This document shows, piece after piece, positions 3,614 to 19,501 of a stretch of DNA of 20,428 nucleotides. The stretch comes from a virus. The notes beneath the pieces are model-generated. The model was given only the letters and a program-made list of their open reading frames with translations. It made no database searches and was not told the origin of the DNA. Numbering within the stretch: position 1 is the first letter of the stretch; every line of letters begins with the position of its first letter. The position numbers and the translations under genes were made by a program. The stretch lies in IMG/VR virus record IMGVR_UViG_3300024529_000219, positions 1 through 20,428 of that record. One strand, given 5' to 3'.

Positions 3614-4074
3614 TATTTTCTCCTAGCCATATTATTTAGTGTGTCTGCCATTTTAATCATTCTTTCCTGCTTACCGTCTACCGACGAAACCCTAGCATGT
3701 GCATGGTTCTTTACTTTAAGTATCTTTGTGGCTAGTGGATTTTCTTTTATAGCAGAGTAATATTTCTTTTCCCATTTAGTAAACCCGTCACCGTATTGGT
3801 CTAATGTACTACCTATTATAAACCAAATAGCACCATCTGCCCAATCTAAAACGATTTTTTCTTTGGCTTTTATTCCGGCCAAGTATTCTGAATACGCATA
3901 GAGCCTAAAAGCGTTGATATAGCACGTTTCCTGACTCCATGACTGCATTTCTTCAAAATCTGCATTGATTACCAGTTCTATCTCTTTAGGTGACTCTACC
4001 TTAGCGAGAAACTTGGAGCTGCTCCATTCTTCAATAGCTTTAACAAATTCTGCCGATCTGTCATCCGTTGTCAT
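3613..4074 (-). CDS. Hypothetical protein, possible UvsY-like recombination mediator
   Basis: This is a 153-residue protein, mostly predicted alpha-helical with mixed charge. The frame is open upstream to 4176, but that would overlap the sulfotransferase by over 100 bases. The ATG at 4074 has a GAGAGG site 6 bases upstream, overlaps the previous stop by only 14 bases, and is preferred. There is an aromatic-rich helix (YINAFRLYAYSEYLAG, about 52-67), then EK-rich segments and a conserved-looking C-terminus with RMIKMADTLNNMARRK. Size, helical content and position three genes after RecA/UvsX resemble T4 UvsY, which loads UvsX on ssDNA. There is no diagnostic motif, so this assignment is an inference; only the existence of the gene is well supported. 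Confidence 0.75.
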   Translation of the reverse strand: MTTDDRSAEFVKAIEEWSSSKFLAKVESPKEIELVINADFEEMQSWSQETCYINAFRLYAYSEYLAGIKAKEKIVLDWADGAIWFIIGSTLDQYGDGFTKWEKKYYSAIKENPLATKILKVKNHAHARVSSVDGKQERMIKMADTLNNMARRK

Positions 4075-4825
4075 ATCTTGCCTCTCTTTGAAACGTATCT
4101 TCGTATAGCTTAATATCTTTCTCCAAAAGTTTACGTGCCTTAGCTGCCAGTTTTTTATTTTCCCAAAAATAAACATCCTTACCTAACTTGGATCGCGTAT
4201 TTCTGACCGGGAAGTTTTCAACCTTGATATCAAAACGAGACATGATTTTTGTAAAATCTTCTTCCAGATTGGAAAAGTCTCCGATAAATTCAACATCGCT
4301 ATTAATCCAAAATGATTGTATTGGGTCTGCATTTGTTGTCTTTCGCCAAAGCATACAGTCCATAAGGTTATTAAAAGCCGCTTCGTGATCTGTACTATCT
4401 AGGATGTGTCTTTTGTAAATTCTGTCCATATTACTATGTACGTTGACTCTATGCCAAAATAAAGAGGTTAGCCAGTCATAAGGACTTCTTAAAAAGATGA
4501 AGTGCCACAATTTTAGATCTTTAGTTCTTTTAAATTTTTTCAGACGTTTTTTTACTGTGCTAACCTGTTGATGTGCAGGAAAGTGATTCTTCCCACCTCC
4601 ATGTTTCCTCCACCATTTCATCCAATCTTGGTATTCTTCGGAATCCTTCCGTCCTACAAACATTTCCGTTTCAGCGTCTCTGGCAAGAGTGCGGACACCT
4701 CTTGTTCCAACCCAGTAAATGTCATCTCCTATATTATTTGACATCCAGTTTCCTATGGAGGTGCCTCCCGTTTTTGGGATGTGGTGACACACAAAGCCTT
4801 TTGTTTTATGTACCATCGTTACCAT
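4061..4825 (-). CDS. PAPS-dependent sulfotransferase family protein
   Basis: This 254-residue protein has both nucleotide-binding signatures of the sulfotransferase superfamily. The 5'-phosphosulfate loop is HHIPKTGGTSI (residues 14-24, K18 being the key lysine). The 3'-phosphate element is FLRSPYDWLTS (111-121, R113 and S121 with the usual spacing). Around 180-190, IGDFSNLEEDF matches the conserved segment that follows in membrane-type carbohydrate sulfotransferases. Such enzymes move sulfate from PAPS to a sugar or other hydroxyl. There is no signal peptide or membrane segment, so it should act in the host cytoplasm, and PAPS would come from host sulfur assimilation. The ATG at 4825 has AAAGG 5 bases upstream and overlaps the nuclease stop by 7 bases; a second ATG at 4816 is possible. 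Its position inside a recombination operon is odd. The substrate is unknown. Confidence 0.85.
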   Translation of the reverse strand: MVTMVHKTKGFVCHHIPKTGGTSIGNWMSNNIGDDIYWVGTRGVRTLARDAETEMFVGRKDSEEYQDWMKWWRKHGGGKNHFPAHQQVSTVKKRLKKFKRTKDLKLWHFIFLRSPYDWLTSLFWHRVNVHSNMDRIYKRHILDSTDHEAAFNNLMDCMLWRKTTNADPIQSFWINSDVEFIGDFSNLEEDFTKIMSRFDIKVENFPVRNTRSKLGKDVYFWENKKLAAKARKLLEKDIKLYEDTFQREARYDNG

Positions 4826-5217
4826 TTTAACCTTTCCTTCCACTGTTCGTCTGTTTCATTAAAAAAAAGCTCTATTAACGCAAGGTCGTTAAGTTGGAAC
4901 CATTCCCTTTTGGTTCTGTCTCTTCCTTGGGCACGGTAAAAATCCATTTTAGTTTTATGATAGAAGTTAACATATTTAAAATGCTGCTCTCCATGAACTT
5001 CTACAAACATTTCCCTGTTTGGCACAAATATGTCACATCTAAGTTTGTTGTTTTTATTCGTCGAAGATCCGGGCAGAGAAACCTCTTCCAAGATTACGTC
5101 GAATGGAAACAGTTCTTTAATAATGCCCACTGCCCGCTTGTGCAGCTTTGACCTCTTTCCTTTACCGCCCTTCGGTTTCCAGTTGTAATCTTTTCCGTCA
5201 AGACCTACAACTTTCAT
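4819..5217 (-). CDS. PD-(D/E)XK-type endonuclease (Vsr/DUF559-like)
   Basis: A 132-residue protein with a basic N-terminus (KPKGGKGKRSKLHKRA) and a nuclease-like core. E44/E45 sit on a first strand, then CDIFVP with D62, then FVEVHGEQHF with E73, H75 and H79. The D-x(10)-E-x-H pattern with GxxH is that of the Vsr/DUF559 branch of the PD-(D/E)XK nucleases. After the core come RDRTKREW and a strand LALIELFFNE, also as in that branch. It likely cuts DNA, perhaps a branched or mismatched intermediate, or host DNA. Its start overlaps the RecA stop as ATGA, so the two are translationally coupled. This argues for a role in recombination or repair, much as other phages pair a recombinase with a resolving nuclease. 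The exact substrate cannot be read from the sequence. Confidence 0.7.
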   Translation of the reverse strand: MKVVGLDGKDYNWKPKGGKGKRSKLHKRAVGIIKELFPFDVILEEVSLPGSSTNKNNKLRCDIFVPNREMFVEVHGEQHFKYVNFYHKTKMDFYRAQGRDRTKREWFQLNDLALIELFFNETDEQWKERLKW

Positions 5218-12595: not shown

Positions 12596-14814
12596 ATTGC
12601 ACACGCTCCAGAGTCGCAGTTCATTTCTTTTTCTGTATCGCCATCGCCGTCAGGTGTATTACAGTAGTAAAAATTCTTTAGTCCGTACTTATATCCGTAA
12701 ATTTGATCTTTGATTAACGCACTAAGGGGAATATTTCCATCTTCGTAATGAGAATAATTGTAGTAAAGATTTGTACTCATGCTCATGTCTACGAATTTTT
12801 GAATTACAGCCGCAACGTCCATAAGGTCACGATTGTTGTCCATTTCCCACGCCATAGTGTAATGCTTCCTACGCATGTGGTAGTTAGGAACTAACTGTTT
12901 CAACACGCCGTTCTTTGCCTTTTTGGATATTAGTAGTGAACGAACTGGCTCAATTCCGTTAGTGCTATTTTGTATAACACTGCTAGACTCGCATGGCATA
13001 ATAGCACTGAGAGTAGAATGACGCAAACCGTACTTTTTGATCCTTTCACGCAAACCTTCCCAGTCCATGTTGTAATTTGGTTTAATTAGTTCGTCAACTT
13101 GTTTCTTATACCAGTCAATAGGCAGCAGTCCGTCTGAATACTTAGTATCGCTAAACTTCGCACAGGGACCAATCTCTTCTGCTAACTCACAACTGGCGTT
13201 AAGTAGGTTCCATTGAATCTGCTCCATAGTCTCATGCACTAGCTCCAACGCTTCCTTACCGTACTTTAATTTGTTCTTTGCTAGGAATCCTGCAAGGTTA
13301 GTAATTCCAATTCCTAACGATCTACGGTCCTTGGTAAAGTTCTCACCAGCAGCTACAGGATAATCTTGATAGTCAATAACAGCCTCTAGCGTTCTTACCG
13401 CCATTCGACATGCTTCTTCAATATCCTTCTCGCTAGAAAGTTCTAGAAGATTTAGTGCTGACAAGATACAAATTCCAATCTCTCCATCTTTGTCATCAAT
13501 AGATTTGATTGGAACTGTGGGTTGGATAATTTCTTGACAAAGGTTTGACATGTGGCAGGGGATGCTCCACGATCCGTGTGCATTGGCTGAGTCAATATTC
13601 ATGCTGTAAATACGACCAGTCTCCAACCTCTCGCGAGCATAGATTTGAGCAAGCTGGCGGGCCGGAACCTTTCTTTTAAACTTTAGGGATCTTTTCCCTT
13701 CGTACTTTATGTAAAGTTCTTCAAACTTTTCGTTATCTCCAAACACTTCGTACAAGCCCTTTGCTTCATGGGGGCTAAATAATGTAATGTCTTCGTTTGC
13801 AATAAGTCGGTCGTAGAACAACTTGCAGAACTGAACGCTGTAGTCTAGCTTTCTTACTCTGTTATCGTCAGTTCCGGCATTGTTCTTTAGTACAAGAATG
13901 TCCTCAATCTCGTAATGCCAAAAAGGTACATGGACCGTAGCAGAGCCTCCACGTAGCCCGTTCTGAGACGTTGACTTCACTGCTGACTCAAAGTTCTTTA
14001 AGTAGGGAATTAGCCCTGTGTGGATGACCTCGCCGCCCCTGATGGGTGAGTTGATTGGTCGCATCCTTCCGATGTTTAGTCCGATACCTGCCCGTCTTGC
14101 TGTGTACTTACCAACAGCGTGGACACTGCTAAAAATAGCATCCAGATTATCATCAACATCAACCAGAACACAACTAGAAAACTGACGTATATTAGTGCGA
14201 ACGCCCGCCATAATAGGGGTGGGAAGATTAATCTTAAATGATGAATAACAATCATAGGCTCTTTTTACCTCTGCAACAGAATCAAACAAACACATAGCAA
14301 TACACATATAGGCAAATTGTGGAGTCTCGTAAATTTGTCCTGTACTTCTATTTTTGACTAAATATTTGTCAATCATTTGCTGCAAGCCAGCGTATGTAAA
14401 ATTGTCATCGCGGGAGTGGTTGACGTACTTACCAAGAGAATCAATCTCTTCTTCTGTCCACCTTTGTTCCATCTGTGGATCGTAGATACCTTGATCTACA
14501 TTTTTTCTGACATAGTTAAGAAAGTCTGGAGAGTCTTTTACCTGCCAAACTTGTTTTCTTAATTGCATGTTCAACAGCCTAGCTGCAACATATTGGTAGT
14601 TTGGGGTTTCTTTAGATATAAGATCGTTTGCCGATTTAATCAATACGTTGTGAATATCTTCTGTTTCTATCTTGTCGTACAATGACAAATTTGCGTTCAT
14701 TTCAATATCGGAAAAGGATACTCCATTGATCCCTTTCGTTGCCCATTGTACGACTTTGTGAATCTTCTCCACCGAGAAGTCTTCTAATGTTTTATCTCTT
14801 TTGGTTACTTTCAT
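12592..14814 (-). CDS. nrdA: Class Ia ribonucleotide reductase, alpha subunit
   Basis: This 740-residue protein is the catalytic subunit. An N-terminal ATP-cone (about 1-90) suggests allosteric activity control by ATP/dATP. Active-site residues are present: C215 (SSCVLVD), NLCQE at 424-428 with the thiyl-radical cysteine C426, and C449 (GICILS). MPCESSS (606-611) and STNGIEPVRS are the substrate phosphate-binding segment. Y716/Y717 (FYYCNT) pass the radical, and the C-terminal CDSGAC (C733, C738) re-reduces the site. This is a complete set, close in length to E. coli NrdA (761). The gene follows a consensus sigma-70 promoter at 14850-14878 and a 36-base leader region, and is coupled to nrdB. 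It reduces NDPs to dNDPs for phage DNA synthesis. Confidence 0.97.
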   Translation of the reverse strand: MKVTKRDKTLEDFSVEKIHKVVQWATKGINGVSFSDIEMNANLSLYDKIETEDIHNVLIKSANDLISKETPNYQYVAARLLNMQLRKQVWQVKDSPDFLNYVRKNVDQGIYDPQMEQRWTEEEIDSLGKYVNHSRDDNFTYAGLQQMIDKYLVKNRSTGQIYETPQFAYMCIAMCLFDSVAEVKRAYDCYSSFKINLPTPIMAGVRTNIRQFSSCVLVDVDDNLDAIFSSVHAVGKYTARRAGIGLNIGRMRPINSPIRGGEVIHTGLIPYLKNFESAVKSTSQNGLRGGSATVHVPFWHYEIEDILVLKNNAGTDDNRVRKLDYSVQFCKLFYDRLIANEDITLFSPHEAKGLYEVFGDNEKFEELYIKYEGKRSLKFKRKVPARQLAQIYARERLETGRIYSMNIDSANAHGSWSIPCHMSNLCQEIIQPTVPIKSIDDKDGEIGICILSALNLLELSSEKDIEEACRMAVRTLEAVIDYQDYPVAAGENFTKDRRSLGIGITNLAGFLAKNKLKYGKEALELVHETMEQIQWNLLNASCELAEEIGPCAKFSDTKYSDGLLPIDWYKKQVDELIKPNYNMDWEGLRERIKKYGLRHSTLSAIMPCESSSVIQNSTNGIEPVRSLLISKKAKNGVLKQLVPNYHMRRKHYTMAWEMDNNRDLMDVAAVIQKFVDMSMSTNLYYNYSHYEDGNIPLSALIKDQIYGYKYGLKNFYYCNTPDGDGDTEKEMNCDSGACAI

Positions 14815-14849
14815 ATTCTTCCCTAGTGTTTACGATATGCCTGCCTATC

Positions 14850-14878
14850 ATTATACACTATTTTGGGACAAAAGTCAA
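14850..14878 (-). promoter_or_regulatory. Sigma-70 promoter upstream of nrdA
   Basis: On the minus strand the -35 hexamer is TTGACT (14878-14873), the spacer exactly 17 bases (14872-14856) and the -10 hexamer TATAAT (14855-14850), an 11 of 12 consensus match. It lies in the intergenic gap 14815-14905, with the predicted start of transcription about 30 bases before the nrdA ATG. It would drive nrdA, nrdB and the genes down to the terminator at 8656. Confidence 0.88.
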
Positions 14879-14905
14879 GTCCAAAATTGATAAAACTTTG
14901 TTTTT

Positions 14906-15232
14906 TTACAGCCTGTCGATTCTCTCGAAAAGGTCTGCAAATTTGTCACCTACCTGCTGACTCAGATTTTTACTGGTATTCTCTGAATTGTTGATTAAAA
15001 TTTTGGTTTCGTTGATGTTTCTATTAACTTCATCAATTTTTTCCTCTAGTGTTTCAACCTTAGATTCAACGCTACCAAGTCTGGTCATCATGGATTCATT
15101 TACTCTTTGTTCTAGCACGATCAATTGCTTTCCTTGTTGAATAAGAGTATAAATAACCCAAGAAAAAACAGGAACAGCAAACATTCCGACTACTTCCGTT
15201 ACGTTACGGATTAGTGTCCAAGTTTCGTTCAT
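14906..15232 (-). CDS. Small membrane protein with coiled coil
   Basis: A 108-residue protein. Residues 8-32 form one hydrophobic segment (VTEVVGMFAVPVFSWVIYTLI), and residues 40-108 are a heptad-like coiled coil (VEQ-, VETLEEKIDEVNRNI, DKFADLFERIDRL). It resembles small phage membrane proteins sometimes annotated as holin- or haemolysin-like, but with the membrane segment first, so a signal-anchored coiled coil facing one side of the inner membrane is the simplest reading. A TTG start 18 bases upstream is possible; the ATG at 15232 is preferred. It lies between the terminator at 15264-15298 and the nrdA promoter, so its own promoter is not evident and it may depend on read-through. Confidence 0.75.
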   Translation of the reverse strand: MNETWTLIRNVTEVVGMFAVPVFSWVIYTLIQQGKQLIVLEQRVNESMMTRLGSVESKVETLEEKIDEVNRNINETKILINNSENTSKNLSQQVGDKFADLFERIDRL

Positions 15233-15263
15233 TGCTTTACTCTCTGTCAACGATGAGGTTATG

Positions 15264-15298
15264 AAAAGTAGGACTCGCTCACACCGAACGAGTCCTAC
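15264..15298 (-). terminator. Rho-independent terminator after virion gene
   Basis: On the minus strand GTAGGACTCG (15298-15289) and CGAGTCCTAC (15277-15268) form a perfect 10-base-pair stem with an 11-base loop, followed by TTTT (15267-15264). It lies 21 bases after the stop of the virion gene at 15319-16005. The same stem without a T-run could fold on the plus strand, but no plus-strand gene ends there. Confidence 0.9.
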
Positions 15299-15318
15299 GC
15301 CTAAACAACCAATATGAA

Positions 15319-16005
15319 CTACATACCAGTAATAGGTTTGTAATCGTAGAAGTCTCCGCTTGTAGCGAAGTTAAGATCTACGAAATCGACCTTCATAACA
15401 AGTGAACCCGGAACTGCTCTAGTTGGGTTAGCAGCAGCATCGCTGTTAGCCGAAGTAGCTCCAGTTGTAGGATCAAGCATGTCAACGTTAGTCAAAGTCG
15501 CTGGAACCTCTGCGGCAGTGCCAGCGGAGTTGAGCCAGTTAAGACGAGAAGGAATCTTAGTGCCATCATCAAGAACGCCAGTGAAGGAGAACTCATTCGC
15601 TCTCCATTTTGCAAGCAAGCGAACGCCAAAGTCGTGCTTAAATCTTGCGACAGTCGAACGATCAGATGGATTACTAGGAATAAGAACTGCATCTGTTGCA
15701 ACACCAGAAATCGTTGTGCTGATTGTACGAATAACGTACTGACCAGCTTCGTGATAAGCGAACGTTCCACCAGAAAGAATTTTCTGAGTACCGTACATAC
15801 CGCCTGTTGGAGCGACGGGATAAGCTCTTTCAACAACACCGTAGGACTTTACAACGTCATCTACAGCGTCTTTAAGTAAAAAAGCTTTTGTAATAACGGA
15901 ACCAGTAATTCCGTTTCCAAGTAGAGTACCACCTTGTTCTTGTGCGGCAAAAGCCCCACCAGTGGTGTTTTTCAAATAGTTTGCCGAAGCACCGGGAACA
16001 GCCAT
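15319..16005 (-). CDS. Probable virion structural protein
   Basis: A 228-residue protein with an Ala/Gly/Thr-rich composition, no membrane segment and no enzyme motif. It begins MAVPGASANYLKNTTGG and ends with VMKVDFVDLNFATSGDFYDY. Base composition is visibly richer in G+C than the neighbouring genes, as often seen for highly expressed virion proteins. It has a strong AGGAG site, an 83-base leader (16006-16088) and its own strong terminator, which fits an abundant protein such as a capsid decoration, head fibre or minor structural component. I do not recognise a specific family. It directly follows the phage sigma factor gene, which may control it. Confidence 0.75.
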   Translation of the reverse strand: MAVPGASANYLKNTTGGAFAAQEQGGTLLGNGITGSVITKAFLLKDAVDDVVKSYGVVERAYPVAPTGGMYGTQKILSGGTFAYHEAGQYVIRTISTTISGVATDAVLIPSNPSDRSTVARFKHDFGVRLLAKWRANEFSFTGVLDDGTKIPSRLNWLNSAGTAAEVPATLTNVDMLDPTTGATSANSDAAANPTRAVPGSLVMKVDFVDLNFATSGDFYDYKPITGM

Positions 16006-16089
16006 AGGAATCTCCTAAGAGTAAAAAAGTTAATTTTCCAAATTATCCATTAATAGCTGTCCGGTTCCTAGGTAACTATACGCAATTTA
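16006..16089 (-). other. Leader region of the virion gene
   Basis: This 84-base gene-free gap (16006-16089) is the longest untranslated stretch before a structural gene here. It contains the AGGAG site about 6 bases before the ATG. It has no consensus TTGACA/TATAAT pair. A promoter read by the phage sigma factor encoded just upstream could sit here, but no motif can be defined from one example. Confidence 0.35.
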
Positions 16090-16566
16090 TTAAACTCCGC
16101 ACTCATCTTTGCAAATATTTATGGCATTTTTTAATCTACGCCTTGCAGTTTCTCTGCTATACCCGTTGATTTTGCCAATTTCTTTCATTGTCAAATTTTG
16201 ATAAAATCTTTGACTCAGTATCTCCCTTACTTCTGCTGGAAGACCTGACGTTATATCTGTGTACTCTTGATAGATTTCAGCTTTGTAGTCTCCCTTTTCA
16301 ATGTCGGAACAGTTGTACTCCAGTTTCTTTTTCTTAACCTTGTTTTTTAAAGCATAAGAAAGCTGACTGTAAAGAAAAGATGTAAACTTAGATTTGGTTT
16401 CGTCGTGCTTTTCAATACATTTCCACAAGGTGTTCATCTTGATGGACTCAATTTCATCCAAGTCAATGTTTCTACGGTATCTATTTGCGACTTTGTTCAT
16501 AATGTTAGAAACATTAGAATCGTTCCACTTAGATGTAAACTGCTCACTAATCTCAATATTATCCAT
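16090..16566 (-). CDS. Phage-encoded sigma-70-family factor
   Basis: A 158-residue protein with two parts of a small sigma factor. Region 2-like: 20-78, with LWKCIEKHDETKSKFTSFLYSQLSYALKN, the helix pattern that binds core RNA polymerase and the -10 element. Region 4-like: 110-148, with a helix-turn-helix in LTMKEIGKINGYSRETARRRLKNAI that would read the -35 element. There is no region 1 or 3, as in short ECF-type factors. It should bind host core RNA polymerase and redirect it to phage promoters, perhaps late ones. A GAGAGGA site precedes the ATG, which overlaps the previous stop by 8 bases. The following gene is a virion protein, consistent with a role in late expression. It could also be a remote sigma-like regulator. 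Confidence 0.8.
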   Translation of the reverse strand: MDNIEISEQFTSKWNDSNVSNIMNKVANRYRRNIDLDEIESIKMNTLWKCIEKHDETKSKFTSFLYSQLSYALKNKVKKKKLEYNCSDIEKGDYKAEIYQEYTDITSGLPAEVREILSQRFYQNLTMKEIGKINGYSRETARRRLKNAINICKDECGV

Positions 16567-17188
16567 GTTTTCCTCTCAAAATTATGCCGCCACGCGACTG
16601 TTTAAGTTCTACGAGTTTGTTCAGCCGTTCCATATATTGCTGATCTAGCTCATCCGATACAACGTAATCCAAATTTCCATTAATGCTGACCAGTATCGAC
16701 CAGTATTTTTGGTTCTCTAACTGTTTCTTTACTAGGTCAACGGTTGCCCTGACCTCATCTGTCATCACCTCTTTTTCTGTGTAAACGCAAAGTTTGTTCT
16801 CTATCTCCTGCCTAACTTCCTGAAAGTCAAATTGTAAATAGGGAACCCCAATAAAAAATGTGTAACGATCCATAATCTTCAAACAGGCAATTCCGTCTGT
16901 ATCCGATATATCATCCTTTATTTCTGCCGTTATGTCAAAGTTTGAAGTCCCTATCCAGCAGTCCCATCTGTCAGAAGGTTTAAACATAGACTCCGTACTA
17001 AATATTCCAACAGGAGTTTGAATAGCTATAGTATGTCTATATGTTAAAGGGGTTACTTCTTGATACCCTTCTTCTTCCATCGCTCCTAGCATTTCCTCCA
17101 TCATATTAGCATCTGCTGCTATTGACATTAGAAACTGGTCCGACTGAGCGTTCCAACTTCTCCAAATTATACTTTTAGCTTTTGGCAT
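16559..17188 (-). CDS. Hypothetical protein upstream of sigma factor
   Basis: I recognise no family for this 209-residue cytoplasmic protein. The N-terminus has RSWNAQSDQFLMSIAADANMM, then an acidic helix MEEEGYQ. The middle is strand-rich (HTIAIQTPVGIFSTESMF; WDCWIGTSNFDITAEIK; YTFFIGVPYLQFDF), and the last 60 residues contain helices with charged faces and end in SRGGIILRGKHG. A GAGGT site lies 6 bases before the ATG. It is the first complete gene after the internal promoter at 17453-17481, so it may be co-expressed with the sigma factor. An anti-sigma role would be a guess without evidence. Confidence 0.78.
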   Translation of the reverse strand: MPKAKSIIWRSWNAQSDQFLMSIAADANMMEEMLGAMEEEGYQEVTPLTYRHTIAIQTPVGIFSTESMFKPSDRWDCWIGTSNFDITAEIKDDISDTDGIACLKIMDRYTFFIGVPYLQFDFQEVRQEIENKLCVYTEKEVMTDEVRATVDLVKKQLENQKYWSILVSINGNLDYVVSDELDQQYMERLNKLVELKQSRGGIILRGKHG

Positions 17189-17197
17189 AACGTTACC

Positions 17198-17563
17198 TCA
17201 TATAGTGTAGGCAGATTTGTCGGGAGATATCAGGGGCTTCTTTCTAAAGTCTTTTACTTCTGAACTTAAATCGCTATTCGGTAAGTGATAATTAACAAGT
17301 TTAAGAAAAGATTCAAATTCTAGCTCCGTACCATTTAATACGCATTGTTCTTTCATTTTTGTTAAAATCGACACTGTGAAATCATTGTGTATGATTTCGT
17401 AGAATATTTGTGAAAGAGCGTAAATTCCATTTTCGCCTTCTTCCCAGTCCATATTATACTGTATCGAACCCCCTTTGTCAACCCAAAATGTCAGATTTGA
17501 CACACTAAGTGAGTAATCGCTATCCTCCTGTAAGTCTTGGGATTTGCCTGACGCAGTATCCAT
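17198..17563 (-). CDS. Hypothetical protein containing an internal promoter
   Basis: A 121-residue protein of unknown family. Residues 1-20 are acidic and polar; 20-60 carry a strand-rich part (SVSNLTFWVDKGGSIQYNMDW), and 60-105 are helical (ALSQIFYEIIHNDFTVSILTKMKEQ). The start ATG has AGAGGA 5 bases upstream and overlaps the previous gene by 44 bases. Codons for residues 28-37 contain the full-consensus promoter TTGACA-N17-TATAAT, so these residues (VDKGGSIQYN) may be constrained by DNA function as well as by protein. The protein's own function cannot be told from the sequence. Confidence 0.72.
   Translation of the reverse strand: MDTASGKSQDLQEDSDYSLSVSNLTFWVDKGGSIQYNMDWEEGENGIYALSQIFYEIIHNDFTVSILTKMKEQCVLNGTELEFESFLKLVNYHLPNSDLSSEVKDFRKKPLISPDKSAYTI
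17453..17481 (-). promoter_or_regulatory. Full-consensus sigma-70 promoter inside a gene
   Basis: On the minus strand TTGACA (17481-17476), 17-base spacer (17475-17459), TATAAT (17458-17453): 12 of 12 consensus bases at optimal spacing. It lies about 80 bases into the gene 17198-17563 and points toward the 209-residue protein and the sigma factor. The terminator at 15264-15298 would end the transcript after the virion gene. Confidence 0.82.
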
Positions 17564-17891
17564 ATTTATCCTCTAAAAAAATATTTTCTAATGGTTGAGT
17601 CGAATAGTCAGCTCTAGCGGATATAATATCCTTTGGAACGGACGAGCAATAAATAGCTTCTACAGTTGATGGTCCATCCTTCGTCAGAGCCATTAGTTTT
17701 GGCGTCAGAAAGTCGCAATGAACATTGCACACCTCTGAACAAAGCTTCTCTAAGGATTTTTCTACACTGCAAGCCGAAATAAAACTTTGAGGAAATTTGC
17801 CATCAGCACCAATAATGACACTAACCGAAGGTATAATCCCAGCAAAGTTACTTGGTATTTCAAGAATTATCAGGGTTATCTTTGTTTTCAT
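17520..17891 (-). CDS. Hypothetical protein
   Basis: A 123-residue protein with an alternating strand/helix pattern: a hydrophobic strand KITLIILEIP, then SVSVIIGADGKFPQS, a Cys-containing helix (CSVEKSLEKLCSEVCNVHC), a strand KLMALT and a further strand VEAIYCSSV. The order recalls a Nudix fold, but the Nudix box REUxEExGU is absent, so I do not call it a Nudix hydrolase. Five cysteines cluster at 41-59. The start overlaps the previous gene by 32 bases, with AGGT about 5 bases upstream, and the 3' end overlaps the next gene by 44 bases. Overlaps on both sides make the exact start less certain. Confidence 0.62.
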   Translation of the reverse strand: MKTKITLIILEIPSNFAGIIPSVSVIIGADGKFPQSFISACSVEKSLEKLCSEVCNVHCDFLTPKLMALTKDGPSTVEAIYCSSVPKDIISARADYSTQPLENIFLEDKYGYCVRQIPRLTGG

Positions 17892-19099: not shown

Positions 19100-19501
19100 T
19101 CAAGTTTTTCCGAAGAGGCGACCACCAAAAAAACCTCTTCTACTCTTAATTGTCTTTTGTTTTTTAACAGGTGCAGGAGATACTGATTCTGGTTCCTGAC
19201 CGCTGTGATACGGGCAGGGGGAAACATGACCATCTCCTTGAACTATTTTACCAGTCCCCTTACAGATGCACTTTTTAACATCTGGATCTGGCCCCGATGG
19301 AACAATCGGTTTTGGATCGGGTTCTGGCTCAACTTTTAAAACTTCCCTTTCGGCCTCTAAAAAACTCTCTGTCGTTCCCTCTATTATACTTTGTATTTCG
19401 TCATTTGTCAACCCTGAACTTGAGAATTTGTCAGAATTTGTAAAATAAACAAATGAAAGTACGGCAACTACGCCTATTACGGCTCTTTGTTTTACGCTCA
19501 T
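19100..19501 (-). CDS. Membrane-anchored protein with Cys/His motif
   Basis: A 133-residue protein with one hydrophobic segment at about 6-21 (RAVIGVVAVLSFVYFTN), an acidic helical region and a proline-rich linker (VEPEPDPKPIVPSGPDPD). C78, C80, C96 and H99 form a compact knuckle (CICKGTG, then CPYH), likely a zinc site similar in feel to a DnaJ-type repeat half. The C-terminus is basic with glycines (KSRRGFFGGRLFGKT). Together it looks like an anchored protein with a small metal-binding head. It overlaps the protease stop by 1 base. Codons near 19383-19411 contain a full-consensus promoter. Confidence 0.7.
   Translation of the reverse strand: MSVKQRAVIGVVAVLSFVYFTNSDKFSSSGLTNDEIQSIIEGTTESFLEAEREVLKVEPEPDPKPIVPSGPDPDVKKCICKGTGKIVQGDGHVSPCPYHSGQEPESVSPAPVKKQKTIKSRRGFFGGRLFGKT
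19383..19411 (-). promoter_or_regulatory. Full-consensus sigma-70 promoter inside a gene
   Basis: On the minus strand TTGACA (19411-19406), 17-base spacer (19405-19389), TATAAT (19388-19383): 12 of 12 consensus bases. It lies within the first third of the gene 19100-19501 and points toward the holin candidate and the next membrane proteins. Confidence 0.82.

Follow-up and report, generated by a model that had tools for sequence, protein, structure and literature searches.

A phage gene that holds an exact bacterial promoter within its reading frame raises the question of whether that promoter is real and, if so, which genes it serves. The window analyzed here, the whole of a 20,428-nt IMG/VR virus fragment in which the long ORFs all lie on the minus strand, presents such a case. 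The initial annotation had reported a perfect sigma-70 match inside the gene at 17198-17563 and had regarded its occurrence by chance in 20 kb as improbable. Both statements proved correct. On the minus strand, positions 17453-17481 spell TTGACA AAGGGGGTTCGATACAG TATAAT, a 12/12 match to the consensus with a 17-nt spacer, and thus has the form of a housekeeping sigma-70 promoter (TTGACA and TATAAT, 16-18 nt apart).

17453-17481, minus strand: embedded perfect sigma-70 promoter, with a predicted start at ~17446 and conserved synonymous sites.
17198-17563, minus strand: 121-aa ORF (ORF121) with an ATG start that hosts this promoter; the peptide VDKGGSIQYNMDW spans the hexamers.

Under a first-order Markov model, 0.0053 exact sites with a 17-nt spacer are expected on the two strands of the window and two were observed, the probability of at least two being 1.4e-5. 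The site is therefore not unique, as a second 12/12 site and an 11/12 site are present on the same strand.

19383-19411, minus strand: second perfect sigma-70 promoter, embedded in the ORF at 19100-19501 through the codons TTG ACA ... ATA AT.
19100-19501, minus strand: 133-aa ORF (ORF133), an open frame that hosts the second perfect promoter.
14850-14878, minus strand: intergenic nrdA promoter, TTGACT-17-TATAAT (11/12), located 36 nt upstream of nrdA, with the -10 region AGTGTATAAT.

Relatives' loci were retrieved by protein similarity to ORF121, the sigma factor, ORF209 and NrdA. The promoter itself was never the query, so the promoter counts are free of selection for the promoter. The resulting set comprises 80 non-redundant loci (1.27 Mb). 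Within ORF121, the hexamers are encoded as (g)TT-GAC-A.. and TAT-AAT, and all four synonymous bases are kept in 17 of the 20 orthologues with a site-compatible peptide, while the codons for Asp, Gly and Cys beside them are variable. When the orthologues are clustered at 75% nucleotide identity, 11 of 14 clusters carry the site, with 6.4% predicted for each from codon usage (binomial 2e-11; such cluster-based p values assume independent clusters and are indicative only). As the synonymous bases are kept, conservation acts on the DNA and not on the protein alone. In the case of ORF133, all 22 peptide-compatible orthologues use TTG (Leu), ACA (Thr) and ATA (Ile), and the perfect site is present in 21 of them (18/19 clusters).

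Conservation of these bases, synonymous sites included, which the initial annotation had proposed as a check, holds for most of these ORF121 orthologues. The refuting case named there, relatives with the gene but not the hexamers, is also observed in part, in four lineages. The ORF121 peptide is kept without them in three clusters (L081, L087 and L026), and the close relative L061 (55% identical) has TTGATA/TATCAT in their place. These four lineages retain the upstream ORF133 site, either perfect or with one mismatch (L026). Since the gene is kept without the hexamers there, the copy at 17453 is selected but replaceable, that is, useful to the phage and not indispensable. As judged from these sequences, the site at 17453-17481 behaves like a real promoter under DNA-level selection.

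Across the 80 loci, perfect hexamers with a 17-nt spacer occur 90 times in gene-sense orientation and never in antisense. A 16-nt spacer gives 19 and 0, respectively, and all other spacings give 0 or 1. The sites recur inside the orthologues of ORF121, inside those of ORF133 and ahead of nrdA in the intergenic gap, and the -35 box is preceded by A-rich or T-rich tracts. In the long relatives (60-173 kb), perfect sites with 16- or 17-nt spacers cluster in the small-ORF region. They often stand ~30-60 nt ahead of a gene start, as is the case for many small ORFs and for rIIA, rIIB and an endonuclease. A region without perfect sites contains the genes for TerL, the tape-measure protein and a relative of the major head protein. 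Such an arrangement, with many near-identical sense copies before early genes, is that of phage early promoters, and the class would mark rIIA, rIIB, the small-ORF arrays and nrdA as early-type genes.

Downstream of the promoter at 17453 lies a tightly packed unit that includes a phage sigma factor.

16559-17188, minus strand: 209-aa ORF (ORF209), the first complete gene downstream of the 17453 promoter, encoding a putative protein.
16090-16566, minus strand: phage sigma factor of 158 aa, in which regions 2 and 4 are indicated by Pfam, by a profile search and by an AlphaFold model.
16003-16076, minus strand: leader that extends to the ATG of the 228-aa ORF and carries five GGA motifs in almost every relative.
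15319-16005, minus strand: 228-aa ORF (ORF228), the last gene of the unit.
15268-15298, minus strand: intrinsic terminator ending the unit, a 14-pair stem followed by TTTT.

The 158-aa protein has the two regions that define the sigma-70 family. Pfam places region 4 over the cut-off (E 2e-11) and region 2 under it, and both sigma2 and sigma4 are matched by the profile search and the AlphaFold model. The gene was found in 9/9 long relatives. According to the initial annotation, the transcript would carry the 209-residue protein, the sigma factor and a virion gene before ending at a terminator at 15264. The terminator was confirmed as the stem at 15298-15268, its position being kept in 32/42 relatives vs 0/55 and 1/64 at control positions. 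No strong hairpin terminator lies between the 17453 promoter and this stem, where the one candidate is a weak 5-pair hairpin at 16598-16586. The promoter at 19383-19411 also reads into the sigma operon with no predicted terminator between. The three downstream ORFs are likewise as proposed, but the virion assignment of the last was not confirmed, as searches of PHROGs and Pfam with the 121-, 209- and 228-aa proteins gave no convincing match and the fold prediction for the 228-aa protein (pLDDT 44) was left unused. GenBank phages searched with the 209-aa and 308-aa proteins gave no match, nor did GTDB genomes scanned with the 209-aa family for a clue to the host. Elsewhere in the window, a 260-aa ORF (4061-4843, minus strand) contains HIPKTGGTS and is sulfotransferase-like by eye; it occurs in only 3 of the 80 loci.

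The leader of ORF228 has features of its own. Among 32 relatives, five GGA motifs (six in two) stand between the late-type motif described below and the start codon, compared with ~1-2 in controls, and the first two are 6 nt apart in 30 of the 32. In many relatives, a GGATCTC sequence is able to pair with the Shine-Dalgarno region. The segment looks like a CsrA/Rsm-type leader or that of another riboregulator. CsrA was sought as an explanation and was not found in ten long relatives, and Rfam gave no match on 14700-17600.

It has further been observed that a second motif, TGYGTATA, accompanies the sigma gene.

16077-16084, minus strand: late-type motif TGCGTATA in the gap that separates the sigma gene from the 228-aa ORF; TGYGTATA occurs nowhere else in the window.
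17333-17344, minus strand: TGCGTATTAAAT within the 121-aa ORF (peptide CVLN), a TGYGTATTA variant.

The gap between sigma and ORF228 contains TGYGTA in 32/32 relatives and the full TGYGTATA in 26 of these. In eight long relatives, the motif lacks a -35 box, and its density 20-90 nt upstream of genes is ~30 times that in coding DNA. It is located ahead of the gene that follows TerL and of further operons in the opposite-strand virion block. An unbiased 8-mer ranking places TGTGTATA first (38-fold), with fragments of TTGACA/TATAAT next. The T4 late consensus is TATAAATA. This was rejected as the late motif, being weakly enriched (3.6-fold vs 38-fold for TGTGTATA) and not the leading element upstream of virion genes that T4-type late promoters would provide. 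TGYGTATA, more than the TTGACA/TATAAT class, is a candidate target for the phage sigma, a pairing that we infer. Its occurrence as a -10-only element ahead of both the virion operons and the 228-aa ORF lends independent support to the suggestion of a transcription cascade. Within the TGCGTATTAAAT of ORF121, the Val codon is GTA in all 39 orthologues that have that Val (31% expected), and two relatives have the TGYGTATT form in place of the motif between sigma and ORF228. It is possible that TGCGTATTAAAT serves as an embedded, self-activating promoter for the phage sigma.

At nrdA, the two kinds of signal meet. The -10 region AGTGTATAAT of the promoter at 14850-14878 is also similar to the late-type motif, and TTGAC(A/T) is combined with GTGTATAAT both here and in the nrdA gaps of L084, L081 and L123, as if both polymerase forms could read the promoter. 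The late-like GTGTATAAT suggests that the early and late classes are not cleanly separate. In distant relatives, nrdA has its own embedded TTGACA-17-TATAAT (L116:3061, L118:2954, L127:6230, L132:11721 and L076:11721), encoded via the peptide VDKLVKPKYNMDW, which is similar to that of ORF121.

The promoters of the class also share an element within the spacer. CGATA occurs, sense-oriented, in 56 of 146 non-redundant spacers vs ~2.6 in shuffles, and alignment of the spacers on CGATA reveals a G two bases before it in 81%, giving GNCGATA. The distance of CGATA to the -10 box is variable, and GNCGATA varies in position from both boxes (e.g., L135, L152 and L173). As the element floats, which a fixed polymerase contact would not, a separate, putative binding protein is its likelier reader. 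The spacer at 17453-17481 has TTCGATA, a partial element with T instead of G two bases before CGATA. Sought in the literature as elements of phage promoters, TGTGTATA and GCCGATA gave chance matches only.

The reading that accounts for the locus with good probability is that of an early promoter for host sigma-70 within the 121-aa gene, which drives ORF209, sigma and ORF228, followed by use of TGYGTATA by the phage sigma. Transcription by the host RNA polymerase would begin near 17446, inside the packed operon, and the transcript would cover the 209-aa, sigma and 228-aa genes and end at the terminator at 15298-15268. The perfect promoter at 19383 would supply the sigma operon with further transcripts. 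The phage sigma would then direct the host polymerase to the -10-only TGYGTATA before the virion operons and the 228-aa gene. The sequences show the site with its DNA-level conservation, the promoter class and its strand bias, the TGYGTATA motif, the terminator and a sigma fold, whereas promoter activity, early timing and use of host sigma-70 are inferred. Recognition by the sigma-70 of the host is an assumption of this reading.

It is very improbable that the hexamers are present simply because a peptide (V-D-K-x5-Y-N-x-D-W) is conserved, and that they have no promoter role. The retention of the peptide without hexamers in L081, L087 and L026 would fit, as would the same peptide pattern in the NrdA of distant relatives, which also gives hexamers. 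However, 11 of 14 clusters agree at all four synonymous bases, where 6% would be expected for each, beside variable Asp, Gly and Cys codons, the 133-aa gene yields the same hexamers from an unrelated peptide (LT.....II), and the class is strictly sense-oriented. The 17453 promoter might instead be used by the phage sigma, which would make it a middle or self-activating promoter. Region 4 of that protein could bind a -35 element, and every long relative searched that has the promoter class also has the sigma. Nonetheless, the hexamers match the housekeeping consensus base for base, the sigma gene is itself downstream of the promoter, and a different motif, TGYGTATA, stands after that gene and before the virion operons, which makes this reading improbable.

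More weight belongs to a real host-type promoter that acts at a delayed-early or middle stage and is restrained or turned off via GNCGATA, although this too is rather unlikely. The excess of CGATA over shuffled spacers and the TTCGATA of the 17453 site speak for it; the element at 17453 is, however, partial and partly codon-determined, and GNCGATA has no known binding protein. The early host sigma-70 promoter is retained as the preferred reading. A broader proposal, tentative and somewhat doubtful, is that this uncharacterised phage group combines exact-consensus early promoters bearing a floating GNCGATA operator (an off or on switch) with TGYGTATA as a new late specificity that its own sigma reads. 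With the two signals also embedded in the gene ahead of sigma, the host polymerase would start the sigma, which would then sustain itself.

For a widespread uncultured phage group, these results offer a concrete transcription map, with early promoters, a probable sigma motif and the start and end of the sigma operon. They also provide a clear case of strong promoters kept within protein-coding DNA at synonymous sites. GNCGATA and TGYGTATA constitute two regulatory predictions that are testable without culture of the phage.

Promoters within phage coding sequence have a precedent in lambda, where pAQ is embedded in gene Q. The double constraint is alike, whereas the sequence is unrelated and the exact consensus here is kept across many lineages. 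The T4 factor gp55 is not known to have a full region 4, in which it differs from the 158-aa sigma with its regions 2 and 4. In T4, early transcription relies on strong sigma-70 promoters, and the late promoters are served by a phage sigma (PMC5780444); the present phages would resemble it in both respects and differ in the late motif. In Listeria phage CKA15 (P100-like, Herelleviridae), the promoters measured early are SigA-like, with TTGACTT and TATAMT, those measured late consist of an extended -10 only, and a phage sigma rises mid-infection (PMC12282133). The combination of sigma-70-type early promoters, a -10-only late-type motif and a phage sigma is shared, with the timing measured in CKA15 and predicted here. 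The late motif of CKA15 is TGCTATATTA as opposed to TGYGTATA, and the passages that describe its promoters make no mention of a GNCGATA spacer element (PMC12282133). By analogy with these systems, the overall scheme is best read as a T4/SPO1-like early-to-late cascade.
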